From Bartonella sp. M0283 (GTDB taxonomy: Bacteria > Pseudomonadota > Alphaproteobacteria > Rhizobiales > Rhizobiaceae), in assembly GCF_016100455.1 (NCBI RefSeq), contig NZ_JACFSK010000001.1, forward strand, positions 248,001 to 312,000: a DNA stretch of 64,000 nucleotides, given 5' to 3'. Position 1 is the stretch's first letter; each line of letters starts with the position of its first letter. Of the stretch, positions 18,537-60,156 are shown in pieces. Under the pieces are notes generated by a model, which had not been told where the DNA came from, did no database searches, and was given only the letters and a program-made list of their open reading frames with translations. Position numbers and translations under genes: made by a program.

Positions 18537-18902
18537 CAGTCTGACATAAAATATCATACGATTTTGTAAAAAATATCGATCAGAATGCAGCCTTTTTGAT
18601 CGAGATTGGCACTGTACCCGCCGCCAGAACGAAGTAAAAATATAATTATCGGGTAAATTGCGCGTGGAAAAATCAAACCGGTCAAAACCGTATGCGGTAA
18701 GAAATAACGCTGATATTCTATGTCGGAAATTATAAAAACTATCTCGCAAGTCGTGATCTGTCATAAAAGTTAAGTTCGGAAAGAGGCGTCATTTCAATCC
18801 GTTTGAATATGTTTCTGATTTATCTCATCCGCCAAACGAATAATACATCAATAAGCACGAAACCCGTGCGAGAAAAAATGTGCGAAAAATAAATGAAAGC
18901 GC
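18537..18902. other. Intergenic region, no gene
   Basis: About 365 bp between the acyltransferase stop and the 3' end of the leftward tracrRNA. I see no gene here. Confidence 0.5.
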
Positions 18903-18990
18903 AATAAAAAACAGCCCCCTGAGGGGCTGCCTTATTTGGTGCATATCTAGCTTGTTAACAGCCAGACCGCATTTTCTAATCTGTGAACAT
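18903..18990 (-). ncRNA. tracrRNA for type II-C Cas9
   Basis: On the minus strand the sequence carries an anti-repeat at 18954-18988 matching the CRISPR repeat: ACAGATTAGAAAATGCGGTC is identical over 20 nt, followed by a mismatch bulge and further partial pairing. It continues through a nexus-like segment to a terminator hairpin (CAGCCCC/GGGGCTG, loop of 4) and then TTTTTTATT at 18903-18911. This polarity fixes the tracrRNA as leftward, divergent from cas9. TATAAT and TTGACA elements lie upstream on the minus strand with a 14-bp gap, so the promoter is only tentative. Confidence 0.88.
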
Positions 18991-19090
18991 TAAATTATAT
19001 GAAAATAACCAGTTGTCAATAGTTTTTTATTCTTGCTTATTTTTTCCTCTTGTTTAAATTTTTCAACGATTTTGCGTGAGGGGAGCGGTT

Positions 19091-22000
19091 ATGACTGCAG
19101 AAAATTATTCCAATGTTCGTTTTTCTTTCGATATTGGCACGAATTCTATCGGCTGGGCGGTTTTTCAATTAAATAACAAGCAGGAAGCGGTAAAAATTCT
19201 CAATGCCGGTGCACGTATTTTTAGCGATGGTCGGGATCCGCAAAGTGGTGACCCGTTAGCGGTAAGGCGGCGTACCGTTCGTTCGGCTTCCCGCATGCGC
19301 GACCGCTATCTCCGTCGCAGGAAAAGAACATTGGATAAATTGGTAGGCTATGGTCTTTTGCCTGAAGATAAAGCCGAGCGGGATAAAATACTTCTTGAAA
19401 CGAATGACAAACCATCCGGTTCTAGAGATAAAAAGACCGACCCCTATTCGTTAAGAGCACGAGCACTTGAAGAAAAATTGCCTTTGGCCTATGTGGCACG
19501 CGCGCTTTTCCATATCGGGCAAAGGCGCGGCTTCAAATCCAACCGTAAAGCCGACCGTAAAAGCAATGAAAAAGGCAAAATTGCTGTCGGTATTGAAGAA
19601 TTGTCAGGCTTGATGCACCAAAGCCACGCGCCGACTTTGGGCGCTTATCTTGCCAAAAGGCGGGAAGAGGGGCATGTCGTGCGCCTTCGCGCCAATTCCG
19701 AAGCGTTGACAGATAAGGCTTACGCCTTTTATCCCGAACGCGCCATGCTTGAAGACGAGTTTCGCAAAATCTGGCAAGCACAGGCAGAATATTATCCCGA
19801 TGTTTTAACAAAAGAACGGGAAGAAGAACTGTTCCATGTCATGTTCTTCCAGCGCCCGCTTAAAGAACAGAAAGTGGGCTTCTGCACCTTGGTTGAAGGC
19901 GAATTGAGACTTCAAAAAGCCGACCCGCTTTTTCAACAATTCCGCCTTTATAAAGAAATCAATGAATTGGCGATTATCCTTCCCGATCTGTCGCAACGCA
20001 AATTGACCATGGAAGAGCGCGACACACTCATCACATTGATGCGCCCGGCCAAAACAAAAACATTTGCGGCACTTCGCAAAGCATTAAAAATTCCCGCTGG
20101 CGGGCGTTTCAATAAAGAAACCGAAAATCGCAAGCAGTTAACGGGCGACGAAGTCTATTCGGTCTTTTCAAAACCGGAACTTTTCGGGGCCGATTGGGGA
20201 AAATTTTCAACAGAGCAACAGCGCGAAATTATTGACCAACTCAATAATGAAGAAAATCCCGATAAACTCGAAGAATGGTTGAAGGGCAAATTCCCGAAAC
20301 TGTCGGATGAACAGCGGGCTGAAATCATCAATGCCAATCTGCCTGACGGTTATGGGCGTTTCGGGATTACAGCAACATCCAGAATTCTGGAACAAATGAA
20401 GAAGGATGTGATTAGCGAAGCCGAAGCGGCCCATCGTTGCGGTTTCGATCATTCATTGGCAAATCGCAATTGGAAGGGATTGGACGAGTTGCCACGCTAT
20501 CAGGAGGTTCTGGAACGCCATATCGTTCCGGGAACCGGCGACAAGAATGATATTTATGACATTTATAAAGGCAGGCTCACCAATCCGACCGTTCATATCG
20601 GGCTCAATCAGGTTCGTCGCCTCACCAACCGGCTCATCAAGGCTTATGGCAAGCCGTGGCAAATTGTGGTTGAACTTGCGCGCGATCTACCCTTGTCGCA
20701 AGAGCAAAAACGTAAAGTTAATAAAACGATCAAGAATAACACTGATGCAGCTATAAGACGGTCCGAACAACTTGGGGAAATCGGCAAAAGAGACAATGGT
20801 TATAACCGTCAATTGCTGAAACTTTGGGAAGAACTCGGGGATGACCCGAACGATAGAAAGTCCATTTATTCAGGAATACCTATAACCGAACCGATGCTGT
20901 TTTCCGGCGAAGTTGAAATCGATCATATATTGCCTTTTTCACGCACGCTTGATGATAGTAACGCCAATAAAATTCTCTGTCTGCGCGAAGAAAACAGAGT
21001 GAAACGCAATCGCGCACCGGATGAAGTTTCAGAATGGCAAGGCCGTTATGACGAACTTATCGAACGGGCAAAAATATTGCCAAAAAACAAGCAATGGCGT
21101 TTTACACGCGGTGCAATGAAAAAAGCCGAAGAAAATCGGGACTTTCTTGCCCGTCAATTGACAGATACCCAATATCTGGCAAAGCTTGCCCGCGAATATT
21201 TTGATAGCCTTTATCCGGGGGAAGAGGTGAATGCGGATGACGAGTTCAAAAAAGTTCAACATGTATGGGCAATTCCTGGCAAGTTAACAGAATTGCTTCG
21301 TCGCAATTGGGGGTTAAATTCTCTGCTTGCAGCTGAAGGTGATGAAAACGCAAATCATCCCAAAAACCGTAAGGATCACCGCCATCATGCCATTGATGCC
21401 ATGGTGATCGGCGTCACAACGCGCTCGCTTTTAAAACGTATTGCAACGGCTGCCGGAAGGTTCGAGGGCGAAGATTTCGAGAATTTTGTCAAAAAGGCAG
21501 TTTCCGAAATTTTGCCGTGGGAGAATTTCAGGAACGACGCGAAAGACGTTGTCGACAAAATCATTGTCAGCCATAAGCAAGATCATGGCACAATAAGCCG
21601 TGCCGGTTACGCTCAAGGCAAGGGTAAAACCGCCGGACAGTTGCACAATGAAACAGCCTATGGCCTAACCGATGAAAAGGATGACAAGGACAATAAACTT
21701 GTTGTCACGAGAGAGAATTTCTTGTCGCTCGAAAGTACAGATATTCCAAAAATTCGTGACGAGAATTTACAAGCCGAGCTTTATAGTGCAACGCAAGGTT
21801 TGGACAAAAAAGAATTTCAGGAAGCTTTGCTCCGTTTTGCACGTGACCATAAGCTTTATAAGGGTATCCGCCATGTCAGGGTGCTCCTGCCTCGAAATGT
21901 CATTGAAATAAAAGACAAAAATGGCAAAGCTTATAAAGGCTATATGGGAAATTCAAACTATCGCTATGATGTTTGGGAAACTTTGGATGGCAAATGGAAT

Positions 22001-22369
22001 AGCGAAGTTGTTTCAATGTTTGACGCGCACCAACCAAAATGGCGTTCGGAATTCCATAAGAAAAACCCCACAGCGCGCAAAGTGTTGAGCCTGCAACAAA
22101 ATGATACGGTCGCTTATAATGATCCGGAAAAAGGACATGTGATTGCCCGCATTGTCAAATTCGGTCAAAACGGTCAAATATTTTTTGCTCCCCATAATGA
22201 AGCGGATGTATCAGCGAGGGATTCCAACAAAAACGACCCCTTTAAATTGACTGTTAAAACAGCAACGGGGTTGAAAAAAATGCAATTCCGGCAAATTCGT
22301 GTGGATGAAATGGGGCGCGTTTTCGACCCCGGTGCGCAGGACAGAGAGTCAAAACAGGCAAGATCATAG
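19091..22369 (+). CDS. cas9: CRISPR-associated endonuclease Cas9, type II-C
   Basis: A 1092-residue Cas9, the compact size of II-C effectors. All catalytic residues are visible: RuvC-I Asp14 in F-D-I-G-T-N-S-I-G-W, RuvC-II Glu528 in V-V-E-L-A-R-D, HNH His612 in E-I-D-H-I-L-P, and RuvC-III His766/Asp769 in H-H-A-I-D-A-M. An arginine-rich bridge helix (R-D-R-Y-L-R-R-R-K-R) lies near residue 75. The frame is uninterrupted. ATG 19091 is chosen because GAGGGGAG lies six bases upstream; an in-frame GTG at 19076 lacks one. With the tracrRNA and repeats it should cut DNA matching spacers. The adaptation genes following it are broken. Confidence 0.97.
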   Translation: MTAENYSNVRFSFDIGTNSIGWAVFQLNNKQEAVKILNAGARIFSDGRDPQSGDPLAVRRRTVRSASRMRDRYLRRRKRTLDKLVGYGLLPEDKAERDKILLETNDKPSGSRDKKTDPYSLRARALEEKLPLAYVARALFHIGQRRGFKSNRKADRKSNEKGKIAVGIEELSGLMHQSHAPTLGAYLAKRREEGHVVRLRANSEALTDKAYAFYPERAMLEDEFRKIWQAQAEYYPDVLTKEREEELFHVMFFQRPLKEQKVGFCTLVEGELRLQKADPLFQQFRLYKEINELAIILPDLSQRKLTMEERDTLITLMRPAKTKTFAALRKALKIPAGGRFNKETENRKQLTGDEVYSVFSKPELFGADWGKFSTEQQREIIDQLNNEENPDKLEEWLKGKFPKLSDEQRAEIINANLPDGYGRFGITATSRILEQMKKDVISEAEAAHRCGFDHSLANRNWKGLDELPRYQEVLERHIVPGTGDKNDIYDIYKGRLTNPTVHIGLNQVRRLTNRLIKAYGKPWQIVVELARDLPLSQEQKRKVNKTIKNNTDAAIRRSEQLGEIGKRDNGYNRQLLKLWEELGDDPNDRKSIYSGIPITEPMLFSGEVEIDHILPFSRTLDDSNANKILCLREENRVKRNRAPDEVSEWQGRYDELIERAKILPKNKQWRFTRGAMKKAEENRDFLARQLTDTQYLAKLAREYFDSLYPGEEVNADDEFKKVQHVWAIPGKLTELLRRNWGLNSLLAAEGDENANHPKNRKDHRHHAIDAMVIGVTTRSLLKRIATAAGRFEGEDFENFVKKAVSEILPWENFRNDAKDVVDKIIVSHKQDHGTISRAGYAQGKGKTAGQLHNETAYGLTDEKDDKDNKLVVTRENFLSLESTDIPKIRDENLQAELYSATQGLDKKEFQEALLRFARDHKLYKGIRHVRVLLPRNVIEIKDKNGKAYKGYMGNSNYRYDVWETLDGKWNSEVVSMFDAHQPKWRSEFHKKNPTARKVLSLQQNDTVAYNDPEKGHVIARIVKFGQNGQIFFAPHNEADVSARDSNKNDPFKLTVKTATGLKKMQFRQIRVDEMGRVFDPGAQDRESKQARS

Positions 22370-22400
22370 GAAATGAACCCTGTTTATAAAAAACTGTTGA

Positions 22401-22425
22401 GAGCATGCCGTTTGGCGGCATGCTC
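22401..22425 (+). terminator. Hairpin between cas9 and cas1
   Basis: GAGCATGCCG and CGGCATGCTC form a perfect 10-bp GC-rich stem with a 5-nt loop, 31 bp after the cas9 stop and 6 bp before the original cas1 start. It is followed by TTCTC rather than a long T-run. It could terminate or attenuate transcription from cas9 into cas1. Confidence 0.55.
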
Positions 22426-22430
22426 TTCTC

Positions 22431-23400
22431 ATGGATAGAATAGTTGACATACCTGCTGATGGCTTACACCTTGCCATAAAAAGCACCTTGCCATAAAAAG
22501 AGGTTTTTTAACCATTTCCAGTCGAGAAGCGGAAGTGGGGCGGGTTGCGCTTGATGATATTGGAGCCTTAATTACTCATTCTTATGGTTTGAGCTCAACA
22601 AATCACGTCTTTATCGAATTGTCCGAACGCTCTATTCCAATCGTTTTATGTGGAAATAACCACCGTCCGGTTGCTATCGTTTGGCCAGTAGAAGGCCATT
22701 CTGTTCAAACTGTGCGGATGAAAGCGCAGGCATCGGCACCAAAGCCGATACAAAAACAGATTTGGGCAGAAATCGTTCGTTGTAAAATCAGGCTACAAGG
22801 CGCAGTGCTCAAAGCTTGTGGCAAAGAGGGTGCGGATTTTGTCGCCATTGCCCGTCAGGTGCGTAGCGGTGACCCGGAAAATAAGGAAGCACAGGCCGCC
22901 CGCAAATATTGGAAAACATTATTCGGAACCGCGTTCAAGCGTGACATAGCACATGAAGGCACCAACAGCCTTTTAAATTATGGTTACATCGTTCTACGTG
23001 CACTTGTTTCACGCGCTATTTGTGCTGTCATCCAACATTGGGCGTTTTTCATTCACATCGTGCCAACGCCTTCGCGCTTTCTGATGATTTGATGGAACCT
23101 TATCGTCCTTTCGTTGACCGCATGGTCTTCCACCTGCTTACCCAAGGAAAAACAAAAGTTGATGCCGAGGTAAAAACTTATCTTGCTTCACTTTCAACAC
23201 TTGATTTGAAAAGTCATGTGGGAACGTCGCCTGTCAGCCAGCAAGTTCAATACTTTGTACATTCGGTTGCGGAAAGTTTTGAAACGGGAAAGGTCAAGTT
23301 GGCTTTACCCGATGAACGTTCAATTTTTTCTTTGCAAAACGATCCGGTCCAAATTGATGACGCATGGGGAGAAAATGACAATTATGACAGCCTATCTTGA
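22431..23400 (+). pseudogene. cas1: Broken cas1 (two frameshifts)
   Basis: The original start is ATG 22431, reading M-D-R-I-V-D-I-P-A-D-G-L-H-L-A-I-K. A perfect 17-bp tandem duplication at 22467-22500 then shifts the frame and stops translation after 21 codons. The main frame resumes with R-G-F-L-T-I-S-S and continues through G-R-V-A-L-D-D-I-G. Near 23028 it is broken again: expected A-G-L before H-P-T-L-G-V-F-H is missing and the frame moves by one. A 7-nt loss fits best: removing 17 and adding 7 to 970 nt gives exactly 320 codons, a normal Cas1 length. Cas1 is the spacer integrase, so adaptation is probably lost. GTG 22535 could express only an internal fragment. Confidence 0.93.
22467..22500 (+). 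repeat. 17-bp tandem duplication inside cas1
   Basis: CACCTTGCCATAAAAAG occurs twice head to tail (22467-22483 and 22484-22500) with no mismatch. Seventeen is not a multiple of three, so it frameshifts cas1. The identity of the copies suggests a recent slippage event; a contraction would restore that part of the frame. Confidence 0.97.
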
Positions 23401-23443
23401 GCGTGCAACATCGGTTCCTAAACATTTAAGCGGGTATTGATTA

Positions 23444-23749
23444 ATGTGGATATGAGTTACTTTCGACTTACCGGTAGAGACAAGAAAACAGCGCCACGAC
23501 GCAACGAAATTCAGACAATTTTTGTTGGATATTGGCTTCGAGATGAGCCAGTTCTCGAATTATCTGCGTTTCTGTAACGGAAAAGAACAATTCGAATCTT
23601 ATGTCAGGAAGATCGAATCCTCCTTGCCTGAACGAGGGAACATCTATATTTTCCAATTTACCGACAAGCAATATGAAAATATCGTAAGATTTTCCGATCA
23701 AGCACGTAGGAAACGTCAAAAAAATCCCGCCCAACTGGTGTTATTTTAA
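23444..23749 (+). pseudogene. cas2: Broken cas2 (stop at codon 4)
   Basis: Frame 23444-23749 reads M-W-I-stop-V-T-F-D-L-P-V-E-T-R and then a normal Cas2: K-F-R-Q-F-L-L-D-I-G-F-E-M, Q-F-S-N-Y-L-R-F-C and S-L-P-E-R-G-N-I-Y-I-F. The F-D-L-P motif with the family's conserved Asp lies after the stop. TGA at 23453-23455 is the only defect; a TGG or CGA ancestor is one base away. The next in-frame candidate starts lie after the catalytic strand, so they would give a truncated product. Cas2 is the structural partner of Cas1 in spacer integration. The last codons run directly into the array terminator. Confidence 0.9.
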
Positions 23750-23760
23750 TGAAAAACAGC

Positions 23761-23815
23761 ATTTTTTTTAAAAAAATGTCCACTTAATCCTTATAAAACA
23801 AAGGGTTAAGTGGAC
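23761..23815 (-). terminator. Leftward terminator of CRISPR array 1
   Basis: On the minus strand a 10-bp stem (GTCCACTTAA with TTAAGTGGAC) is followed by a run of eight T. It sits between the last repeat of array 1 and the 3' end of cas2, so it ends leftward array transcription. Confidence 0.85.
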
Positions 23816-23819
23816 ATCG

Positions 23820-24119
23820 GTTGTAACAGATTAGAAAATGCGGTCAAGCCGCAACATTTCATCGACACGTGTGCAAATAGGGTCTGTTGTAACAGATTAG
23901 AAAATGCGGTCAAGCCGCAACAAAAATGTAAAGTGATGATACCGGCCAATGGTTGTAACAGATTAGAAAATGCGGTCAAGCCACAACATTAAAAACCTCA
24001 TCAAAACTGATTTCAGCGTTGTAACAGATTAGAAAATGCGGTCAAGCCGCAACCCGCCGGAATAGCCTTTCAAGCGGTTGTGCGTTGTAACAGATTAGAA
24101 AATGCGGTCAAGCCGCAAT
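23820..24119 (-). CRISPR. CRISPR array 1: 5 repeats, 4 spacers
   Basis: 36-bp repeats start at 23820, 23886, 23952, 24018 and 24084, with 30-bp spacers. On the plus strand each begins GTTGTAACAGATTAG and ends GGTCAAGCCGCAAC. The third repeat has one substitution and the rightmost ends in T instead of C. Comparison with the tracrRNA and the flanking terminator shows that crRNA is read leftward, so the right side is the leader side. Array 1 is adjacent to the cas genes. Confidence 0.97.
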
Positions 24120-24568
24120 AGAACGCGGGTAAAACGTCGATATACTCAATCTTTACTTACTTAATTATGTTATTCATTGATTTGTTCCTCTTATTCTGTT
24201 ATATTTAAGATGCGCCGAGTAAGGAACGCCATGGCTTTTAGCGATGTGGGGATTGCATTTCCGGCCCCCCGGCGTGTTACTTTCCTTTCTGTGATATACT
24301 TATTTTGCTTGCCTTTACCGTGATTTGTGCGTTTTATACTTCGTGAATTGTCGTGGCTTGCGGCAGGTTTCTTCTCTATCGAATATCGGTTACCCGTTTT
24401 TTGCTTTGATACTGGCTCATCATCGTCAATCTCCTGATTTCATCGGGAATATAAGTGGCTTCTGGAACAGCAGAGACGATAAGGCCTGATTATAGGTTGC
24501 TCGTTGTTAGCAAATGCTAATTTAGAAGGTGTTCCAAGCGGTGAGAGATTTAACCACCTTTCAGAATT
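24120..24568. other. Leader-side flank of array 1 and undetermined sequence
   Basis: The first about 75 bp (AGAACGC, GTAAAACGT, ACTCAATCTTTACTTAC) match the right flanks of arrays 3 and 4 and are probably the CRISPR leader. The remainder to 24568 has no counterpart there, and I see no convincing gene on either strand. Confidence 0.6.
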
Positions 24569-24655
24569 GCCAAGCAATGTGAAAATATGGTTAGATTTTT
24601 AGAGAAAACGTGGATGACACGTCAAAAAAATCGAAATTTACCGGTGTTATTTTAA
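24569..24655 (+). pseudogene. Decayed copy of the cas2 3' end (block 2)
   Basis: CAAGCAATGTGAAAATAT, then GTCAAAAAAATC, then GTGTTATTTTAA align with the 3' end of cas2 (about 23665-23749), including the position of the stop codon. It stands directly before the terminator of array 2, exactly as cas2 stands before array 1. It cannot encode a functional protein. Confidence 0.8.
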
Positions 24656-24666
24656 TGAAAAACAGC

Positions 24667-24722
24667 ATTTTTTTTAAAAAAAATGTCCACTTAAACCTTA
24701 TAAAACAAAGGGTTAAGTGGAC
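24667..24722 (-). terminator. Leftward terminator of CRISPR array 2
   Basis: Same hairpin as at array 1: GTCCACTTAA pairs with TTAAGTGGAC, with a T-run following on the minus strand. Confidence 0.85.
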
Positions 24723-24726
24723 ATCG

Positions 24727-25225
24727 GTTGTAACAGATTAGAAAATGCGGTCAAGCCGCAACCTCGTTGGTCATCTTTTTTCGCTGCTGCCTGTTGTAAC
24801 AGATTAGAAAATGCGGTCAAGCCGCAACCATTCATCTGGCTCGTATTTCTGCCCTCCGGTTGTAACAGATTAGAAAATGCGGTCAAGCCGCAACTGAAGC
24901 CGCCCCGGAACCGACCCCAAAAAAGGTTGTAACAGATTAGAAAATGCGGTCAAGCCGCAACGATAAAAACGCGAACCTTGCCGCCCTTAATGTTGTAACA
25001 GATTAGAAAATGCGGTCAAGCCGCAACGACAAGCTCAACGGGGTGACCGGTGGGTTGGTTGTAACAGATTAGAAAATGCGGTCAAGCCGCAACATATTTG
25101 CATCAGGCCACTTGTCGGTTCGGGTTGTAACAGATTAGAAAATGCGATCAGGCTGCAAGCATGGTCAAGAAAGCCATTATTGCAGCCTGAACACAACAGA
25201 TTAAAAAATGCGGTCAAGCCGCAAC
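24727..25225 (-). CRISPR. CRISPR array 2: 8 repeats, 7 spacers
   Basis: Repeats start at 24727, 24793, 24859, 24926, 24992, 25058, 25124 and 25190, with 30-31-bp spacers. The last two are degenerate: one has GCGATCAGGCTGCAAG at its 3' side and the other begins AACACAACAGATTAAAAA. No leader-like flank follows; instead the sequence runs within 120 bp into a tRNA-Ser gene. The rightmost copies have lost parts of the promoter-like motif seen in the intact repeats. Confidence 0.95.
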
Positions 25226-25341
25226 TAAAAGTGTCAATAAACTAACAGCTAATAGTCTATCAGATTGGAACAAGCGGTCAAGCGCGGCCATTCCGAACGG
25301 GCGCATAACTAAAGAAGTCGTTTCAAAGAAAAGGAAAATCA

Positions 25342-25431
25342 TGGCGGAGAGGGAGGGATTTGAACCCCCGATAGAGTTGCCCCTATGCCGCATTTCGAGT
25401 GCGGTGCTTTCAACCACTCAGCCACCTCTCC
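25342..25431 (-). tRNA. tRNA-Ser(CGA)
   Basis: The 90-nt minus-strand sequence folds as a class II tRNA. The acceptor arms are GGAGAGG and CCTCTCC with a G discriminator and an encoded CCA. The anticodon stem-loop CCGCA-CTCGAAA-TGCGG gives anticodon CGA. There is a long variable arm, and the T-arm contains GGTTCAAATCC. It belongs to the conserved chromosome and separates the left CRISPR arrays from rplU. Confidence 0.96.
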
Positions 25432-25950
25432 ATAAAAGGCGAACTTTATTTGTTAAACAAATATCCGAGCGCGTTAGCGGCTAAATAGCTGGCAATTGGC
25501 TTTGACACAAGCCCCTTTTTTGATTTTTTGGAAAATTCCGTTCACCATTTCAAATCTGTTTTGTTCATTTTTGCGCGGTGCCATAGGCGCATTTTAAAAA
25601 AAACGCATCAGAGTTTTTTCGGCCTATTGCTGTTTGCCCGACAAAAATGGTTGTTTGTCACATGCATCCGGTTTTTGCCATGATTGCCGGTTAATTCACA
25701 AAAAGCTTTCCGGTTTTTTAAAGCTGGTCGATTGACAAGTGAAGAAAACTTCTGCATAAATCGGCCAAAGGCGTAGTGTGTCTACATTTGTGTAAAAAAG
25801 TGTATCTGCACTTGTCTAAAATTATGCCGGTCGGTTTTTTAGGGCTGGCAAATTTTAAAAGACGGATAATTTTAACGACTGATAAAAAGACGGGCTGTCT
25901 CATCGCTTTGAAGTGTTGGACAAGATCCGGATGGAACGAAAGGGTAAAAA
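25432..25950. other. Intergenic region upstream of rplU
   Basis: About 520 bp without a gene; holds the probable rplU promoter (listed separately) in its right half. Confidence 0.5.
25732..25760 (+). promoter_or_regulatory. Probable rplU-rpmA promoter
   Basis: TTGACA at 25732-25737 and CATAAA at 25755-25760 with a TG just before the second element, separated by 17 bp. A start near 25767 would leave a 5' leader of roughly 185 nt before rplU, room for ribosomal-protein autoregulation, though no specific structure is recognised. Confidence 0.6.
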
Positions 25951-26436
25951 ATGTTCGCAGTCATCAAGACGGGTGGTAAACAATACCGTGTTTCCCCCAG
26001 CCAACTTGTGAAAGTTGAAAAGGTCTCTGGCAATGCCGGTGATATTGTGGAGTTCAATCAGGTTCTCGTTGTTGGCGAAGGTGAAACAGCAACAATCGGA
26101 ACTCCTGTGGTTGCCGATGCGTTGGTAACAGCAGAGGTTGTTGAACAGGCACGTGCACGCAAAGTTATTGCTTTCAAAAAGCGCCGTCGCCAGAATTCGA
26201 AGCGCATTCGTGGTCATCGTCAGGAATTCACCACAATTCGCATTTCCGAAATTCTTACAGGTGGTGCAAAGCCTTCCAAGGCTGCAACAAAGCCGGCTGA
26301 AAAAGCAGCAAAACCGGTAGCCGCCAAAGAGGCAGCACCAAAGGCTGAAAAACCGGCTGCAAAGAAAGCCAAAACAGAAACAACCGGAAAAAAAGCAGCG
26401 CCGAAAAAGGCAGCCGCTAAAAAGTCGGAAAAGTAA
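25951..26436 (+). CDS. rplU: 50S ribosomal protein L21
   Basis: A 161-residue L21. The first about 105 residues are the conserved domain, starting [14 protein letters not shown] and with the RNA-binding [10 protein letters not shown] segment near 75. The last about 55 residues are an Ala/Lys/Pro-rich tail, an extension common in Rhizobiales. AAAGGG precedes the start. It is followed 22 bp later by rpmA, the usual pair. Confidence 0.98.
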
Positions 26437-26458
26437 GAGAGATTAAAGGAGAACAACC

Positions 26459-26728
26459 ATGGCACACAAAAAAGCTGGTGGTTCCTCGCGTAACGGTCGC
26501 GATTCAGAATCAAAACGCCTAGGCGTTAAAAAATTTGGTGGTGAAGCAGTTATTCCGGGTAACATCATTATCCGGCAACGCGGCACACAATGGCACCCTG
26601 GCGAAAATGTCGGCATGGGTAAAGACCATACATTATTTGCCCTTAAAGCGGGCAAAGTATCTTTCTGCGTCAAAGCGAATGACCGCTCCTATGTGTCGGT
26701 GATTCCGATGGCGGAGGCAGCAGAGTAA
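26459..26728 (+). CDS. rpmA: 50S ribosomal protein L27
   Basis: 89 residues, starting [19 protein letters not shown], which matches the L27 N-terminus that reaches the peptidyl transferase centre. AAGGAGA lies seven bases upstream. Cotranscribed with rplU. Confidence 0.98.
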
Positions 26729-26789
26729 GCCGGAGCTCTTAAATAAAACCGGCGTCCCGTTGGACCCCGGTTAGCTTCCAAAGCAAATT

Positions 26790-26827
26790 AAAGGGAAAGA
26801 TGGGACACCATCCTTCCCTTTTTCTTT
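26790..26827 (+). terminator. Rho-independent terminator after rpmA
   Basis: AAAGGGAAAGATGG pairs with CCATCCTTCCCTTT (one bulge) around a short loop and is followed by TTCTTTT. It lies between rpmA and the GNAT gene, so it may reduce read-through into the latter. Confidence 0.75.
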
Positions 26828-26844
26828 TGCTCCAGGAGGTAACT

Positions 26845-27444
26845 ATGAGCACTGAATTATTAGAAGAAATAAGAAAGAGGCCGCCCAGAACCTTGGATTG
26901 CCCGGTTCTGGTAACTGAAAGGCTTGTTTTACGCGCACCCAATGTAGAAGACATGGACGCCATTGCCGATCTCGCCAACAACCGGAATGTATCTGCCATG
27001 CTTCAATCTGTGCCTTTTCCATTCACACGAAAACATGCAGCAGAATACATTCTTCGTTCAGTGGCGGGCGAGATGGGCTATTGCGCCTATGCCATTACAA
27101 AAGCCGAGGATGGCGCATTTATCGGAGCCTGTCATATAAAGGACCGCGAAGAGGGCGAAGGCTTGAGCCTGCGCTACTGGATTGGCAAACCCTATTGGAA
27201 TAAAGGCTATGCAACTGAAGCGGTTGGCAGCCTGATTGATGCCGCTTTCCGTGCAACCGATATTGATGCGCTCTATGTTTCGAATTTCGCGGCCAATAAA
27301 GCTTCCCGCCGCGTTATCGAAAAACAGGGCTTTGAATATATCGGAACATCCGAACAAAACTCGCTGGTTTCCGGTCTGGTTATCGCCGACAATTATGTCC
27401 TCGAACGCGAAAAATGGATCGGCCAGTTGAGCAAATGCGCCTGA
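26845..27444 (+). CDS. GNAT-family N-acetyltransferase (RimJ-like)
   Basis: A 199-residue acetyltransferase. The start at 26845 is set by AGGAGGT four bases upstream. The segment L-V-T-E-R-L-V-L-R-A-P near residue 28 and the acetyl-CoA-binding region Y-W-N-K-G-Y-A-T-E-A near 117 are typical of RimJ/RimL-type enzymes, which acetylate protein N-termini or small amines. The gene usually lies between rpmA and obgE in Bartonella and relatives; here CRISPR satellites follow instead of obgE. Confidence 0.92.
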   Translation: MSTELLEEIRKRPPRTLDCPVLVTERLVLRAPNVEDMDAIADLANNRNVSAMLQSVPFPFTRKHAAEYILRSVAGEMGYCAYAITKAEDGAFIGACHIKDREEGEGLSLRYWIGKPYWNKGYATEAVGSLIDAAFRATDIDALYVSNFAANKASRRVIEKQGFEYIGTSEQNSLVSGLVIADNYVLEREKWIGQLSKCA

Positions 27445-27461
27445 ACACGCCCGCTTCAATA

Positions 27462-27545
27462 ATGAGGCCTGAAAAGCTTGGCTGAACAAGCAGGCCTTAA
27501 AAGCTTGGCTGAACAATCAGGCCTTTTATAAAAAAGGCCTGATGA
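27462..27545. repeat. 27-bp direct repeat beside the GNAT gene
   Basis: AGGCCTGAAAAGCTTGGC and AGGCCTTAAAAGCTTGGC, each continuing TGAACAA, are repeated with a 27-bp period. They are followed by AGGCCTTTTATAAAAAAGGCCT, itself an inverted repeat that could act as a terminator for the GNAT gene. Confidence 0.7.
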
Positions 27546-27688
27546 GGCCGTTTTAATCGAGCCGATTGGGTGAAACTGGCCGAGTGGGGCAGGCGTGTTC
27601 GGCTTTAGCCACGCTCGAATTGAAAAAAGCAAACCGGATGTGCCAAACCGGTTTATCACGCTGTCTTACGGTTTATCACGCTGTCTTA

Positions 27689-27712
27689 AAGCCCGCTTTA
27701 TCAAAGCGGGCT
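27689..27712 (+). terminator. GC-rich hairpin
   Basis: AAGCCCGCTTT and AAAGCGGGCTT form a near-perfect stem with a short loop, followed by CTTG. It resembles a weak terminator, about 245 bp after the GNAT gene. Confidence 0.5.
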
Positions 27713-27863
27713 TCTTGTTAGGTAGCACGACGCATTCACCAGTATATTATCAACCGAAAGCTTTCCTAAAAAATGGAAACAGCGGTTCACTAAATTGCTT
27801 GAGGTCTTTGTAAAAAAAAGCCCGAACATGCCGGCTTATCCTGTTTTAAGAAGATCGCAACAA

Positions 27864-28009
27864 CCTTGCCCGAACGATGAAATTTCGATATTTTTTTGCC
27901 TTACAGATAAGCAAATTGATTGTGCACTTAAGTGAAAATATTGTCAGATTTTTAGGAAAAACGTGGATGACGCGCCAAAAAAAATCGAAATTTACGGGTG
28001 TTATTTTAA
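27864..28009 (+). pseudogene. Decayed copy of the cas2 3' end (block 3)
   Basis: The segment aligns with cas2 from the S-L-P-E-R-G-N-I-Y-I-F codons to the stop: CCTTGCCCGAACGATG, then AAGCAAATTG, GAAAATATTGTCAGATTTT and TTATTTTAA. An extra stretch of about 18 bp (shared with blocks 4 and 5) interrupts it, so blocks 3-5 descend from one decayed ancestor. Confidence 0.85.
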
Positions 28010-28020
28010 TGAAAAACGGC

Positions 28021-28075
28021 ATTTTTTTTAAAAAAATATCCACTTAAACCTTATAAAACAAAGGGTTAATTGGAT
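28021..28075 (-). terminator. Leftward terminator of CRISPR array 3
   Basis: The hairpin is ATCCACTTAA with TTAATTGGAT. The outer G-C pair of the other copies is A-T here on both sides, a compensatory change, with one internal mismatch. A T-run follows on the minus strand. Confidence 0.75.
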
Positions 28076-28079
28076 ATCG

Positions 28080-28181
28080 GTTGTAACAGATTAGAAAATG
28101 CGGTCAAGCCGCAACTTTGTCTTTCCCCACTTTTTGCCGGTCGCGGTTGTAACAGATTAGAAAATGTGGTCAAGCCGCAAT
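28080..28181 (-). CRISPR. CRISPR array 3: 2 repeats, 1 spacer
   Basis: Repeats at 28080-28115 and 28146-28181 around one 30-bp spacer. The second repeat carries GTGGTC instead of GCGGTC and ends in T like the rightmost repeat of arrays 1 and 4, showing that all three copied the same leader-side boundary. Confidence 0.9.
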
Positions 28182-28408
28182 AGAACGCTGGTAAAACGTT
28201 GCTATACTCAATCTTTACTTCCTTCATTATGTTATTCGTTGATTTTACTTTTCAATTCCAGCATATTTTTCTAGGACACCGAGCCATCCGGAGCGCCACC
28301 TTTTGGTGTTGGGGGTTTCCGACCCAACGGTGTCGTCAAATTTTTCTTTTTTCGCTTTCGCAAATTTTCCGGCAACGTTTGATGTAAATTTTCTGTAAAG
28401 TCGTTATA
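28182..28408 (-). repeat. CRISPR leader copy A
   Basis: About 225 bp that are strongly similar to 28722-28938, beginning AGAACGCTGGTAAAACG and ending AAAGTCGTTATA. It includes a GTTGGG/CCCAAC inverted repeat. On the minus strand it lies immediately upstream of array 3, as expected for a leader. Confidence 0.75.
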
Positions 28409-28547
28409 CCGAACGATAAAATTTCGCTATTTTTTGCCTTAAGGAACAAGCAAATTGATCGTGTGCTTATGTGAAAATATTGTTAGATTTTCAGACAAAA
28501 CGTGGAAGATACGTCAAAAAAATCGAAATTTACCGGTGTTATTTTAA
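28409..28547 (+). pseudogene. Decayed copy of the cas2 3' end (block 4)
   Basis: Starts CCGAACGATAAAATTTCGC or similar and ends GGTGTTATTTTAA, aligning with blocks 3 and 5 and with the end of cas2. It begins immediately after leader copy A, so the unit boundaries are visible. Confidence 0.85.
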
Positions 28548-28560
28548 TGAAAAACAGCAT

Positions 28561-28614
28561 TTTTTTTGAAAAAAATATCCACTTAAACCTTATAAAACAA
28601 AGGGTTAAGTGGAC
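28561..28614 (-). terminator. Leftward terminator of CRISPR array 4
   Basis: Same hairpin with one A-C mismatch at the outermost pair (ATCC against GGAC), followed on the minus strand by a T-rich tract interrupted by C. Confidence 0.7.
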
Positions 28615-28618
28615 ATCG

Positions 28619-28721
28619 GTTGTAACAGATTAGAAAATGCGGTCAAGCCGCAACCTTTTTAAGATAGATGAGCTTTTCTCTAGGTGTTGTAACAGATTAG
28701 AAAATGCGGTCAAGCCGCAAT
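28619..28721 (-). CRISPR. CRISPR array 4: 2 repeats, 1 spacer
   Basis: Repeats at 28619-28654 and 28686-28721 around one 31-bp spacer. The right repeat ends CCGCAAT and is followed by the leader-like AGAACGCCGGTAAAAC. Confidence 0.9.
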
Positions 28722-28938
28722 AGAACGCCGGTAAAACTTCGTCATAATCAATCTTTACTTACTTCTTGATACTGTTTGTTGAATTTATTTTTCAATTACA
28801 TTATATTTTTCTTGGACACCGAGCCATCCGGAACGCTACCTTTTTGGTGTTGGGGGTTTCCGACCCAACGGTGTCGTCAAATTTTGCTTTTTCCGCTTTC
28901 TCAAAATTTCCGGCATCGTTTGAAGTAAAGTCGTTATA
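28722..28938 (-). repeat. CRISPR leader copy B
   Basis: Second copy of the about 220-bp flank described for array 3, with scattered substitutions but the same block ACACCGAGCCATCCGGA and the same GTTGGGGG inverted repeat. The two copies together define the duplicated module. Confidence 0.75.
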
Positions 28939-29124
28939 AATATTACTTCCGAGCGTGTCTTTTGCAGATCGCTTAGCCAATGTTTACTGCCATAATAATT
29001 GAATGCGGAAACATAGCCATTTTGATTTTTAAAAAGTCGGCATCCGGAATTGCGTGTTCAGTGATTGACGAATAAATTTCCGATGTCGCTTTGATAGGAT
29101 GCTCACGTTTGCGGATTAAAACAC
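28939..29124. other. Undetermined sequence between leader B and block 5
   Basis: No gene or repeat recognised. It may be a remnant carried with the module. Confidence 0.4.
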
Positions 29125-29270
29125 CCTTGCCTGAACGATGAAAGTTCGATATTTTTTTGCCTTAAGGGACAAGCAAATTGATCGTGCGCTTATGTAAAAA
29201 TATTGTTAGATTTTCAGGAAAAACGTGAAAGACACGTCAAAAAAATCGAAAATTACCGGTGTTATTTTAA
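29125..29270 (+). pseudogene. Decayed copy of the cas2 3' end (block 5)
   Basis: Starts CCTTGCCTGAACGATG, nearest to intact cas2 among blocks 3-5, and ends GGTGTTATTTTAA. Same extra insert as blocks 3 and 4. Confidence 0.85.
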
Positions 29271-29281
29271 TGGAAAACAGC

Positions 29282-29337
29282 ATTTTTTTACAAAAAAATA
29301 TCCACTTAAACCTTATAAAACAAAGGGTTAAGTGGAC
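29282..29337 (-). terminator. Leftward terminator of CRISPR array 5
   Basis: ATCCACTTAA pairs with TTAAGTGGAC except at the outermost position; T-rich tracts follow on the minus strand. Confidence 0.75.
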
Positions 29338-29341
29338 ATCG

Positions 29342-30428
29342 GTTGTAACAGATTAGAAAATGGGGTCAAGCCGCAACGTTATTATCTGAATGGTGTTTGC
29401 TGGTGTGGGTTGTAACAGATTAGAAAATACGGTCAAGCCGCAACATTCAAAAGACGCGGGCGGTTATGTTGCTGGTTGTAACAGATTAGAAAATGCGGTC
29501 AAGCCGCAACCAAAAGCGGGGAAGCACATATCGTCTATAAAGTTGTAACAGATTAGAAAATGCGGTCAAGCTGCAACAACGACACAACAATCCTGACTGA
29601 TAAAAGTGTTGTAACAGATTAGAAAATGGGGTCAAGCCGCAACTAACAATGACATGGGCTGACATCGAAGGTTGTTGTAACAGATTAGAAAATGGGGTCA
29701 AGCCGCAACGGCGATCAAAAAGGGCTGTTTTTGGGATATGTTGTAACAGATTAGAAAATGGGGTCAAGCCGCAACTGTCCAAATAGACGTTTGGTCGCGT
29801 GAAGTGTTGTAACAGATTAGAAAATGCGGTCAAGCCGCAACTATCCCGCGCCCTCAACGCGTTCTCTGTGGGTTGTAACAGATTAGAAATGCGGTCAAGC
29901 CGCAACTCGGCCGCTGTCCGGGGCGAAGAGGTTATGGTTGTAACAGATTAGAAAATGCGGTCAAGCCGCAACCGATGAAACAGATTGCCGACCGGAAAAT
30001 TTGTTGTAACAGATTAGAAAATGCGGTCAAGCCGCAACGAATATATTCTCGCTTACAAGTTTATCAATGTTGTAACAGATTAGAAAATGCGGTCAAGCCG
30101 CAACGCCATAAGTAGCGGCAAGAATGACAACAATGTTGTAACAGATTAGAAAATGCGGTCAAGCCGCAACACCGCCGCTTTCTCTACGTTTTCAGCTTCG
30201 GTTGTAACAGATTAGAAAATGCGGTCAAGCCGCAACATGTATAAAAAGCTCCATAACAAAAAAGCCATTGTAACAGATTAGAAAATGCGGTCAAGCCGCA
30301 ACACTGTTTCCCAAATAAACGACGCGCTAGACGTTGTAACAGATTAGAAAATGCGGTCAAGCCGCAACTGAACAAGGGTTGAAGCCTCTCGATCCATGGT
30401 TGTAACAGATTAGAAAATGCGGTCAAGC
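29342..30428 (-). CRISPR. CRISPR array 5: 17 repeats, 16 spacers
   Basis: The largest array. Repeats start at 29342, 29409, 29475, 29542, 29608, 29674, 29740, 29806, 29872, 29937, then every 66 bp to 30399. Repeats 1, 5, 6 and 7 have GGGGTC in place of GCGGTC, repeat 2 has ACGGTC, and repeat 9 lacks one A. The last repeat is cut after GGTCAAGC and joins unrelated sequence just before an MFS gene, so its leader has been lost. Open frames through the array are artefacts of the repeats. Confidence 0.97.
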
Positions 30429-30453
30429 GGCTGTAGAATATGTTTCGGTTTCA

Positions 30454-31845
30454 TCAATGTTGTGCGGTGGGTTGTTTGCTTTTTTCGTTCAAAGCATGGC
30501 CTGCATCATGGGGCAATGTGCGGAAGATGAAGAAAGCAAGTGCCGAGATAAAGCCGACGACGAAAAAGCCCGTATGAAAATCGCCAAGTTTCAATATATT
30601 GTAGTGAAAGGAGCTCGCAATTTCCAGAACCGCGCCAGCAATTGCAATGCCGAGCGCCATTGAAGCCTGTTGGGCAACAGCGGCAATCGGCGTTGCCTGA
30701 CTGATGTCTTCTTTGGCAATATCGGAAAAGGCAAGCGCATTGACACCGGAGAAGAAAAGCGAGCGCAAAAAGCCGCCGAACAAAAGCACGATAATCATCA
30801 ACAAATAGGGTGTGGTGGGGTAAAACAAGCCATTGGAAGCGGTAAACATTGCCGAGACGAGGGAACCCGCCATCAATACTTTGCGAAAGCCGAAACGGGC
30901 ATAAACTTCCTTGGCGCCGAACTTCATGCCGAGCGAGCCGATGGCCGCGGCAAGAACCATAAGGCCGGATTCAATCGGCGAAAGGCCAAAGGCAAGTTGC
31001 AGCATCATGGGAAGCAGGAAAGGCACGGCTCCGATGCCAAGCCGGAAAACGCTGCCGCCGATAATGGCGCGTGCAAAAACCGGATCGGAAAAAAGCTTAA
31101 GGTCAAGAAGCGGTGCGGTGCGGTTTTTTGCGTGTTTGATGTAGATGGCGCCGAAAATTACACCCAAAATAGTGACACTGATGCCGACACTTTGCGGCAA
31201 GGCGGGAAGGCTCACAATCGAAAGGCCGAAAATAAAGCCGGAAAGGCTGATTGCCGAAAGGAGAAAGCCTGTCCAATCAAGCGGACGGATATATTTTTTT
31301 TCATTTTTTGGCAGATAGATTGATGACAGCACAAGCCCGATAAAACCGATCGGGATGTTGATGAGAAAAATCCAATGCCATGAAAAAAAGGTGGTGATGA
31401 AGCCGCCAAGCGGCGGGCCTACAAGCGGGCCGACAAGGGCGGGAATGGAAAACCATTGAAAGGCAATGACAAGCTGGTTTTTCGGGGTAGATTTAACGAG
31501 AAGAAGCCGGCCGACAGGTGTCATCATTGCCCCGCCTATGCCTTGCAAAAAACGCGACAAAACAAAGGAATGGAGCGAAAAGGAAAAAGCGCAGCAAACA
31601 GAGCCGGCAAGAAAAACCACGATGGCAACACGGAAGATAATGCGTGCGGTAAAACGGTCGGAGATCCACCCGCTTATGGGGATAAAAACCGAAAGTGCCA
31701 CGAGATAGGAAGTCATGGCGAGTTTGAGCGCGATGGGGCTTGTGTTCAAATCGGCGGCAATGGCGGGAAGGGATGTAGAAATCACATTGGAATCCACATG
31801 TTCCATAAACAAAGCGACAGCCAGAACCATAGGAAGAATGCGCAT
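30454..31845 (-). CDS. MFS drug efflux transporter, DHA2-like
   Basis: A 463-residue inner-membrane protein with about 13-14 hydrophobic segments. The motif G-W-I-S-D-R-F-T-A-R near residue 59 is the MFS loop 2-3 signature. A glycine/proline-rich motif C (G-P-L-V-G-P-P-L-G-G) near 140 marks drug:H+ antiporters. E. coli MdtD and EmrB-type proteins are similar. The substrate is not predictable. It lies 26 bp from the truncated end of CRISPR array 5, so the array insertion or deletion ended just past its stop codon. Confidence 0.9.
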   Translation of the reverse strand: MRILPMVLAVALFMEHVDSNVISTSLPAIAADLNTSPIALKLAMTSYLVALSVFIPISGWISDRFTARIIFRVAIVVFLAGSVCCAFSFSLHSFVLSRFLQGIGGAMMTPVGRLLLVKSTPKNQLVIAFQWFSIPALVGPLVGPPLGGFITTFFSWHWIFLINIPIGFIGLVLSSIYLPKNEKKYIRPLDWTGFLLSAISLSGFIFGLSIVSLPALPQSVGISVTILGVIFGAIYIKHAKNRTAPLLDLKLFSDPVFARAIIGGSVFRLGIGAVPFLLPMMLQLAFGLSPIESGLMVLAAAIGSLGMKFGAKEVYARFGFRKVLMAGSLVSAMFTASNGLFYPTTPYLLMIIVLLFGGFLRSLFFSGVNALAFSDIAKEDISQATPIAAVAQQASMALGIAIAGAVLEIASSFHYNILKLGDFHTGFFVVGFISALAFFIFRTLPHDAGHALNEKSKQPTAQH

Positions 31846-32286
31846 TAAATACCCCGAACCCGACTTTTGAACGATGGAACCTTTATAACCAGTGTGCCTA
31901 TATAGACTGAAAAACCTTTATGACTCTAAAACTTTTATAGCTGAAAAATCGTATATGCCAAAAAAACCGAGAGAACCTGAAAACTGTTTCTGACTGAAAA
32001 TCGCGACGAGCCTTATCCCCCATCATTTAGGCCGACACTATCTTGACCGGTTTCAACTGTGAAGAACAGTGAGAGCGACAAAAACCGGCTTCACTTTATC
32101 GTGGTTTTTCATTTCATTCTTGACCTTGAGAGAAAAATAAATTCTTCATCGTTAATGTTCATGGAAAGTCCGGAAGGGCTACACATAACATTTACGACAC
32201 CTATATGTTTTATATCATTATTTAAAAAACGAAGTTATATCCGCTTCGGGTCAATCATTTTAAAAAAGCGCTGATGGAGCGTCCAC
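31846..32286. other. Divergent intergenic region
   Basis: About 440 bp between the leftward MFS gene and the rightward MATE gene. No gene; no clear promoter pair recognised. Confidence 0.5.
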
Positions 32287-33663
32287 TTGCCGCATAAAAA
32301 AACAATTGTTCTCACTAATCTGACTGAAGGCCCGATCACCAGAACGTTGCTTCTCTTTGCCATTCCGACATTGCTTTCCAATGTTTTGCAATCGCTCAAC
32401 GGTTCGATCAACACAATCTGGGTGGGGCGGTTTTTGGGCGAAAGTGCACTTGCGGCAACGGCCAATGCCAATATCATAACCTTTCTTTTGTTTGCCCTTG
32501 TTTTCGGTTTCGGTATGGCGGCAACCATTATGGTTGGTCAATCCATAGGGCGCAAAGATTTGCACCGTGCGCGACAGGCTTTCGGCGCTTCTATCGGCTT
32601 TTGTCTGTTTCTCTCGGTGGTTCTGGCCGTTTTGGGCTGGTTTTTTTCGCCTGAAATCCTGCGCTTTCTTGAAACACCGGCTGATGCTTTTACGCTGGCT
32701 GAAGATTATTTGCGTGTTATCTTCCTTGCTGCACCCCCCGATCTTTTGATGGTCATGATTATGATGGGGCTTCGCGGGGCGGGCGATTCCATGACGCCGC
32801 TCATTTTCATGTGCGTCAATGTTGTGCTCGATATTATTTTCAACCCCGTGCTCATCTTGGGCTTGTGGATTTTTCCGGAAATGGGCATTGCGGGGGCTGC
32901 CGCCTCGACATCTGTTTCTGGCTATCTCGCGCTTTTTGCCATGATTATCTATATCTATGTGAAGAAATTGCCTTTGCGGCTTAAAGGGCGGGAACTCACC
33001 TATATCTGGCCGGATTTTAGCCTGATGCGCTTTATCGTGCTGAAAGGCTTCCCGATGAGTCTGCAAATGGTCATCATTGCGACATCCGGCCTTGTCATGA
33101 TCGGTCTTGTCAATCAGGAAGGTGTGACCACCATTGCCGCCTATAACATCATGCAGCAATTATGGACATATCTGCAAATGCCTTCCATGGCAGTGGGGGC
33201 GGCGGTTAGCGCAATGGTTGCGCAAAATATCGGCGCCGGTCGCTGGAACAGGATTTCAAAAACCACATTGATCGGCTGCGCTGCAACATTTGTCATGACA
33301 GCCATTCTGCTTGGCCTATTGCTCATTTTCGACCGTCCGGTCATTATCCTGTTTTTGGGCAATGACAGCGCGGCCGTGCCAATGGCACAGCATATTCAGG
33401 CAATTGCAAGCTGGAGCTTTCTGTTTTTCGGCCTCGCAATGGTGCTCTTTTCAACAGTTCGTGCCAACGGCGCGGTTCTTGTGCCGCTCATTTGCCTGTT
33501 CATTGCTGTCTATCCGGTGCGCCTTGGCTTCTATTACATGTTTTATGGTTCCATGAAGGCAGATGCCATCTGGTGGAGCTTCACCGTCGGTGCTTTTGCC
33601 TCACTCATTCTGGCGCTTTCCTATTATCTTTCGGGCACATGGAAAAAGCAAAAAGTGCTTTAG
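32287..33663 (+). CDS. MATE family efflux transporter
   Basis: A 458-residue multidrug and toxin extrusion protein with 12 hydrophobic segments in two homologous MatE halves. The N-terminal segment L-L-L-F-A-I-P-T-L-L-S-N near residue 21 and I-N-T-I-W-V-G-R-F-L-G near 42 are typical. It should export cationic or other compounds using Na+ or H+. The start is TTG at 32287: GGAG lies eight bases upstream, and no ATG or GTG in this frame is available before the first membrane helix. Confidence 0.9.
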   Translation: MPHKKTIVLTNLTEGPITRTLLLFAIPTLLSNVLQSLNGSINTIWVGRFLGESALAATANANIITFLLFALVFGFGMAATIMVGQSIGRKDLHRARQAFGASIGFCLFLSVVLAVLGWFFSPEILRFLETPADAFTLAEDYLRVIFLAAPPDLLMVMIMMGLRGAGDSMTPLIFMCVNVVLDIIFNPVLILGLWIFPEMGIAGAAASTSVSGYLALFAMIIYIYVKKLPLRLKGRELTYIWPDFSLMRFIVLKGFPMSLQMVIIATSGLVMIGLVNQEGVTTIAAYNIMQQLWTYLQMPSMAVGAAVSAMVAQNIGAGRWNRISKTTLIGCAATFVMTAILLGLLLIFDRPVIILFLGNDSAAVPMAQHIQAIASWSFLFFGLAMVLFSTVRANGAVLVPLICLFIAVYPVRLGFYYMFYGSMKADAIWWSFTVGAFASLILALSYYLSGTWKKQKVL

Positions 33664-59002: not shown

Positions 59003-59164
59003 GTTGTGGTGAACAATAGGACTTGCAACGTCTGGAAAAATTATGCGCATAGCCGTGGTTCAATGACATGGTTTAATGCAATGGCAGCACATTATGCAGG
59101 TGGAGAGACAGGAGTCTTATCCAATACTTATGTTCATTATTATCGACCTGCTGCCAATGCGTGA
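59003..59164 (+). pseudogene. Fragment of unknown protein
   Basis: 54 codons without a start, reading T-W-F-N-A-M-A-A-H-Y-A-G-G and G-V-L-S-N-T-Y-V-H-Y-Y-R-P-A-A-N-A. It ends at TGA 59162, which overlaps the ATG (59157) of the next segment. It probably represents the interior of a larger protein left behind upstream of the toxin-tip-like unit. Confidence 0.35.
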
Positions 59165-59441: not shown

Positions 59442-59456
59442 AATGTGGAAACAAAT

Positions 59457-59810: not shown

Positions 59811-59871
59811 AATAATGGAGTAATTATTGAGCTCTGGCCCAGCAGCTCATGCACAATAAACTGTCAATTTA

Positions 59872-60135: not shown

Positions 60136-60156
60136 TTTAAAAATGTGGAAACAAAA

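Follow-up and report, generated by a model that had tools for sequence, protein, structure and literature searches.

The locus and its arrays

The 64,000-nucleotide stretch of Bartonella sp. M0283 considered here (contig NZ_JACFSK010000001.1, positions 248,001 to 312,000; hereafter the window) contains a type II-C locus of clustered regularly interspaced short palindromic repeats (CRISPR) and cas9, with one array adjoining cas2 and four satellites, before each of which stands a decayed cas2 3' end. Its order is a minus-strand gene for the trans-activating CRISPR RNA (tracrRNA), cas9, a split cas1, cas2, arrays 1 and 2, tRNA-Ser, rplU, rpmA, a GNAT gene, arrays 3 to 5, and an MFS transporter gene. 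In window coordinates, the features are:

18896-18990, minus strand: tracrRNA gene, with the anti-repeat at 18955-18990, then a nexus-like part and a T-run terminator hairpin
19076-22369, plus strand: cas9 (type II; TIGR01865, 615 bits against a cut-off of 100)
22460-23400, plus strand: cas1 in two frames (type II cas1, TIGR03639, in two pieces)
23444-23749, plus strand: cas2, with an in-frame TGA at codon 4; its final 35 bp lie within the predicted leader core
23715-23819, minus strand: predicted leader core of array 1, comprising the final 35 bp of cas2 and 70 bp with a terminator-like hairpin and a T/A tract
23820-24119, minus strand: array 1, 5 repeats
24120-24621: alpha cassette, consisting of the array 1 right flank and then the decayed cas2 tail of block 2 (cas2 homology from 24571)
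24622-24726, minus strand: predicted leader core of array 2, from the conservation profile and alignment
24727-25289, minus strand: array 2, 9 repeats, the final three degenerate
27838-28079: block 3, with the cas2 tail from 27838 and the predicted leader core at 27975-28079
28080-28181, minus strand: array 3, 2 repeats
28182-28618: beta cassette, with a right flank (~219 bp), a cas2 tail, and a predicted leader core at 28514-28618
28619-28721, minus strand: array 4, 2 repeats
28722-29341: longer beta cassette, with a right flank (~398 bp), a cas2 tail from 29114, and a predicted leader core at 29237-29341
29342-30434, minus strand: array 5, 17 repeats, the final one truncated

The effector is Cas9, and cas1 and cas2 are the sole other cas genes of the locus, as there is no room for another gene between cas9, cas1, cas2, and array 1 (csn2 and cas4 were not searched for elsewhere in the genome); a tracrRNA pairs with the repeat, and indirect evidence, described below, points to spacer acquisition at the 3' end of the array as transcribed. 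Cas9 is 87-96% identical, over the best segment, to the Cas9 of six Bartonella records, two of them titled complete genomes; B. apis PEB0122, B. choladocola BBC0122, and B. apihabitans BBC0178 are included. We take these to be honey-bee gut bacteria and refer to them as bee relatives, the Bartonella of the window being of the same bee-gut type. All six have arrays at the two sites seen here, in most cases with the same module in front, which makes an assembly artefact, a possibility raised in the initial annotation of this stretch, unlikely. The arrays of the window share one repeat and one leader, as a set of duplicated arrays does; spacers in common, the sign expected of a recent duplication, are absent among them at 75% identity. 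There are at least five leader-length matches in this genome, all of them in the window among the matches listed (13 of 26 candidates scored).

Cas2 tails upstream of the satellite arrays

The initial annotation placed a decayed cas2 3' end before each of arrays 2 to 5, and the alignments bear this out: the cas2 coding sequence, taken without the hairpin that follows it, aligns locally to the DNA upstream of these arrays with scores of 43, 43, 40, and 45, none of which is reached by any of 1000 dinucleotide shuffles; five control intergenic stretches give cas2 scores like those of their own shuffles. The upstream segments are thus related to cas2. In the alignment of the five blocks, the stop region TTATTTTAA and the hairpin are in register throughout, again as annotated, and the 18-bp change said to set blocks 3 to 5 apart from cas2 is seen as a common insertion, which opens an 18-column gap in cas2. 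Blocks 2 to 5 have a run of substitutions in common, from TCCCGCCCAACTGG in cas2 to TCGAAATTTACCGG or near it. The tails reach 179 bp in L054 and in block 3 of the window, and a satellite of the relative L013 retains a longer one, with ~270 bp of cas2 in 293 aligned bp (21198-21488, E 9e-29; 0/1000 shuffles).

Leader and cas2 homology occur together in all 20 leader-bearing satellites of the bee genomes that lie outside the cas2 position, and in trees the satellite modules cluster apart from the cas2-adjacent ones (100/100). The earlier proposal that arrays were multiplied together with a cas2 tail therefore stands, as far as it goes; it is incomplete in that the final ~35 bp of cas2 belong to the conserved core described below, and in that cassettes were also exchanged between clusters. 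The same 20 modules bear on neo-CRISPR genesis, in which Cas1-Cas2 integrates spacers at an off-target site: this is possible in principle, but would yield arrays with neither leader nor cas2 homology, so that it is already contradicted for the leader-bearing arrays, and we assign it scarcely any probability.

A side observation concerns two satellite-specific changes relative to cas2 (window 27880-27899 and 27974-27993), which are complementary to each other and make up an inverted repeat with a spacing of about 74 nt, resembling the product of a template switch. Its occurrence, scored across 31 modules, is uneven: it is present in many beta-type modules and in many of those first after GNAT, and absent from the six cas2-adjacent modules and from the alpha modules.

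Polarity of the arrays

The duplex of the CRISPR RNA (crRNA) with the tracrRNA is predicted at -46.1 kcal/mol, and the pair on the opposite strands also forms, at -37.4 kcal/mol; pairing alone thus allows either strand. On the minus strand, the tracrRNA ends in a T-run terminator, GGCAGCCCCTCAGGGGGCTGTTTTTT, which is also present in the relatives read (the six bee relatives and genome G013), and the changes in the anti-repeat of G013 track those in its repeat. A tracrRNA on the plus strand was considered and rejected: its anti-repeat pairs with the repeat (the -37.4 kcal/mol above), yet 158 of 200 shuffles of 18950-19075 fold equally well or better, and no terminator is seen on that strand. 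Rfam, searched over 16000-33000 at E up to 1, returned no CRISPR-related RNA; RalA, matched on the leader of block 5 at 33.8 bits against a gathering score of 170, falls far short of the threshold and was put down to chance.

The hairpin between cas2 tail and repeats is followed by 7-8 T on the minus strand at all five arrays of the window, and across 31 leaders its stem stays paired where both of its sides have changed, as in G013b_A2; of the 16 stem pairs tabulated, pairs 2 and 12 are mostly unpaired (row L013_A4 of the table is one base out of register, which lowers the counts). What the initial annotation called a terminator after cas2 has its T-run on the minus strand, where it reads as a predicted terminator for crRNA transcripts.

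Targets of the spacers give the same orientation. On the side that fits minus-strand crRNAs, position 3 of the protospacer-adjacent motif (PAM) is R in all 12 distinct protospacers, matched with 0 to 5 mismatches, and position 2 is G in nine of them; the opposite side of the 12 shows no comparable motif. This count excludes matches within arrays or to relic spacers as well as two duplicates, namely the second copy of one target (L059) and the identical spacer of a second genome (L015b A1.6). Array ageing can be read from spacers held in common: among 224 bee spacers from seven genomes there are 12 cross-genome pairs, involving 15 spacers. Seven of these occupy the final, right-most position of their array, and none stands first in any of the 26 leader-bearing arrays. 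In these 26 arrays the first repeat is perfect in 23 and the last in five.

Since tracrRNA, terminator-like hairpin, and PAM side agree, crRNAs are best placed on the minus strand; spacer sharing, repeat decay, PAM, and tracrRNA strand together make the cas2-tail and hairpin side the leader and the right flank the old end, so that new spacers would enter at the cas2/hairpin side, a polarity that the sequences support. On the same four lines, the right flank is rejected as a leader. Arrays 1, 3, and 4 do have related right flanks, as had been noted, those of arrays 3 and 4 sharing ~220 bp, but the leader-like role given to them falls, for they are the leader-distal ends. The array 3 flank contains, within 28260-28400, a G+C-rich hairpin, which recurs in the array 4 flank and may have a relative in that of array 1. 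On the minus strand of the repeat, TTGACC-16-TACAAC can be read as a candidate promoter; two variant repeats alone pass a promoter scan.

The predicted leader core and its overlap with cas2

Conservation among the copies delimits a core. Counting back from the first repeat, identity among the 20 bee satellite modules, in 15-bp bins, is 0.93-0.99 from -1 to -105, falls to 0.74-0.89 from -106 to -210, and is ~0.5 thereafter. In this genome 70 bp separate the end of the cas2 stop from the repeat, so that the core covers the final ~35 bp of cas2, and these cas2-derived bases (-71 to -105) are ~95-96% identical among the satellites, as high as the bins of the hairpin, with a drop past -105. Across nine beta cassettes, 12 of the 105 core columns are variable; the cas2 tail next to the core has 42 variable columns of 105 (Fisher p 3e-6), and the right flank has 54 of 215 (p 0.005). 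In G013, four leaders at separate places are alike to about -120, with identities of 0.80-0.88 at -1 to -60 and 0.72-0.83 at -91 to -120, past which identity falls to ~0.3-0.5. Five leaders of G013 and G011 were compared with the satellite block, where two beat all 500 shuffles and three have p 0.014-0.026, and with cas2 itself, where p is 0.002-0.124.

This profile is what separates a functional overlap from passive segmental duplication, in which tandem duplications would have copied cas2 tail, hairpin, and array together, with only the ~70 bp between cas2 and repeat mattering and the cas2-derived part being functionless. The tails do look the part, being non-coding, of unequal length, and decaying outward, and the tail of the MFS gene has been carried along similarly on the other side; but the near-identity of -71 to -105, ending at -105, weighs against it, and the leaders of G013, at their separate sites, keep the block at -91 to -105, though -61 to -90 is weaker. 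We consider passive duplication unlikely. The ~105 bp would instead form the leader, providing the docking site for Cas1-Cas2 and the crRNA terminator and reaching into cas2, and the copies would keep the overlap for a reason. Because this core overlaps the final ~35 bp of cas2, a copied leader must drag a cas2 tail with it; judged from sequence, the tail is not a mere passenger, its final ~35 bp belonging to the conserved core and its remainder decaying as a passenger would.

Cassettes and their movement between array clusters

The units lying between arrays, each running from right flank through cas2 tail to leader, occur at different sites in different genomes. The alpha cassette is found in the cas2-tRNA cluster of the window and L013, and in the GNAT-side cluster of PEB0122; the beta cassette is found in the GNAT-side cluster of five genomes, and in the cas2 cluster of L015 and BBC0122. 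In a tree of 26 modules (bootstrap not fully settled), all six cas2-adjacent modules group together (100/100), and the four second modules of the cas2 cluster need 4 changes; a single clade of these second modules, as defined by position in four genomes, is rejected by the approximately unbiased (AU) test (p 1.3e-4). Leader cassettes have thus moved between the two array clusters, the probable route being recombination between repeats.

For arrays 1 and 2, the converse event has to be weighed, that of one long array cut up by an inserted leader-carrying cassette, rather than whole arrays having been copied. PEB0122 has a single continuous array where others have array 1, cassette, and array 2; it runs uninterrupted from the cas2 leader to the old end at tRNA-Ser, the window and L013 having the cassette in between, and insertion of a cassette by recombination with a repeat would give exactly that picture. 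Array splitting here shades into the best explanation, but it cannot account for the arrays between GNAT and MFS genes, whose site is empty in genomes G006 and G007, and as an account of the whole it is distinctly improbable.

Movement might also be ascribed to the module itself, acting as a transposon-like element, and the copies dispersed over several sites of contig C2 in G013 have that appearance. However, the three cassettes of the window contain no open reading frame (ORF) of 80 or more amino acids (aa), the inverted repeats of three blocks consist of the terminator hairpin or of pairs inside the module, none of them paired at the module ends, and the cassettes run from repeat to repeat; self-movement is accordingly given very little credence, and exchange through repeats remains the preferred route.

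Capture of a gene tail is not special to cas2, since in L015 and L016 the right flank of one array carries the 3' end of the MFS transporter gene (105 bp, made up of DNA from downstream of this gene and its own final ~86 bp). Other gaps between arrays in relatives consist of unrelated DNA. Three inter-array gaps (L054:1355-7005, L013:20021-21058, and L017:15126-15578) hold accessory genes, namely a SocA/Panacea antitoxin-like gene, an acyltransferase, and a WYL-domain gene, together with a weak, below-cut-off helix-turn-helix match; L016:16895-18307, between arrays, holds a fragment with a match to ResT/TelK, a family of telomere resolvases (PF16684).

Origin of the satellites

In G006 and G007, neither of which has a Cas9 or leader match, the aligned ends of the GNAT and MFS genes lie less than 60 bp apart, giving the empty site. 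In G013 the GNAT-MFS gap (L090:7457-7648) holds a decayed copy of the last ~64 GNAT codons, a gene-tail fossil at the site occupied by arrays in the bee species. The leaders of G013 and G011 group with the bee satellites against all cas2 ends (100/100), on which grounds the first copy would predate the split of the two lineages.

The simplest account would start from a single ectopic copy, or a small number of them, with repeats recombining thereafter. The site between the GNAT and MFS genes would have been seeded early by a copy that took in most of cas2, the leader, and the array; recombination between the identical 36-bp repeats of different arrays would then have duplicated, moved, and deleted cassettes of right flank, cas2 tail, and leader; and the arrays would share one Cas9, one tracrRNA, and, where intact, one Cas1-Cas2 acting in trans. 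We hold it to be probable, as a whole, that a cas2-overlapping leader was copied into satellites and that cassettes were exchanged through repeats. A stronger version is put forward tentatively, as somewhat less than an even proposition: that the II-C leader is partly written within cas2, the last ~35 bp or so serving both as codons and as leader, and that repeat-bounded cassettes are excised, duplicated, and re-inserted in the manner of integrons.

Several points weigh against the account. With regard to descent, the AU test does not reject a clade uniting every bee copy (p 0.098), the tree of nine beta cassettes does not separate cas2-cluster from GNAT-cluster copies (50/65), and no cas2 tail is clearly recognizable in the five leaders of G013 and G011. 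With regard to mechanism, recombination between repeats cannot explain the first insertion into a repeat-free site, and some flanks end outside repeats, as in the case of the MFS tail. With regard to the core, recent spread or gene conversion could account for part of its high identity, the G013 leaders are weakly conserved at -61 to -90 (0.54-0.66), and the decay of cas1 and cas2 means that selection on the leaders may be past. With regard to polarity, a simple terminator scan omits the leader hairpins, whose stems hold a mismatch, so that the terminator reading rests on folds, and some of the shared spacers lie away from the old end, three being mid-array and two first in leaderless arrays.

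Spacer targets and the state of the adaptation genes

Spacers of arrays 1, 2, and 5 match sequences in other Bartonella genomes: array 1 spacer 3 a phage major head gene, array 2 spacer 3 a phage tape-measure gene, and array 5 spacer 5, exactly, a phage neck/tail-completion gene. The searches covered 25 of the 30 window spacers (all of array 1, all but the final two of array 2, and all but the final one of array 5) and 61 genomes, and gave at least three matches to genes of this kind. Ten of ten ORFs chosen from three target contigs match phage families (2 from L056, 4 of the 6 of at least 170 aa in L058, and 4 of 14 in L059). Cultured phages gave nothing convincing against two of the array stretches (best E 0.7 and 0.01), and IMG/VR gave no match to exact 22-mers of three spacers or to the whole repeat. 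As spacers of arrays 2 and 5 match phage genes, the satellites store the same kind of phage memory as array 1 does.

The genes for adaptation are in decay. A family search of this genome finds cas1 as the two halves of one split gene alone; cas1 is disrupted in the window, L015, L016, and L017, in the window, L015, and L017 by a 7-bp gap at one site. The TGA at codon 4 of cas2 is found in five of the six bee loci that have cas2, with the codons downstream almost unchanged; the 23-kb locus of M0177 has neither cas1 nor cas2, and cas2 is open in L013, G013, and G011. With both genes broken in this genome, acquisition is probably off and the bank of arrays now read-only.

Relation to known systems

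The locus resembles the II-C systems of Neisseria and Campylobacter in its cas9-cas1-cas2-array order, its tracrRNA, its acquisition at the 3' end, and the mutated extra repeat at the 5' end, and differs from them in having several arrays of one repeat, copied leaders, and a conserved leader that overlaps the coding end of cas2; promoters within repeats have been reported for that family (PMC12080349, PMC12638026, PMC12814883). Arrays with identical repeats served by one cas locus have been attributed to duplication, transfer, or splitting; here too the consensus repeat is the same (PMC12814883). In the present case it is possible, in addition, to trace across seven genomes which unit was copied, the fossil gene tail it carries, and its exchange between two clusters. 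Repeats have been proposed as recombination sites for array rearrangement in a review whose accessible part deals with spacer-repeat units lost or duplicated within an array, whereas the units here are leader-bearing cassettes passing between arrays (PMC8047081). The Bhsal II-C locus of an ant-gut member of the Rhizobiales, a relative of Bartonella, has the same cas9-cas1-cas2-array order, but with one 9-repeat array and no satellites described in the portion of the report seen (PMC5156944). In titles and abstract openings, with subscription papers mostly outside reach, there is no description of leaders overlapping cas2, of satellites with cas2 tails, or of this Bartonella array cluster, in keeping with the earlier remark that arrays multiplied together with a cas2 tail have no standard description. 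Duplicated arrays served by one II-C locus are thus known; new are the traceable gene-tail fossil, the likely overlap of leader and cas2, and the evidence for cassette exchange.

The way in which one cas locus comes to serve several arrays is usually deduced from nothing more than the repeats they have in common; in this locus the copies are tagged by the fossil cas2 tail, and their conserved part marks a probable II-C leader of ~105-120 bp, which is directly testable. If a II-C leader can reach into cas2, trimming the leader or editing cas2 may break both. Exchange of leader cassettes through repeats would be a concrete route by which memory banks could grow and reshuffle, one cas locus feeding a shuffling bank of arrays.

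Elsewhere in the window, at 59076-60507, small neighbouring ORFs resemble, by eye, tandem near-duplicates (pairs of 121/87 and 121/120 aa).

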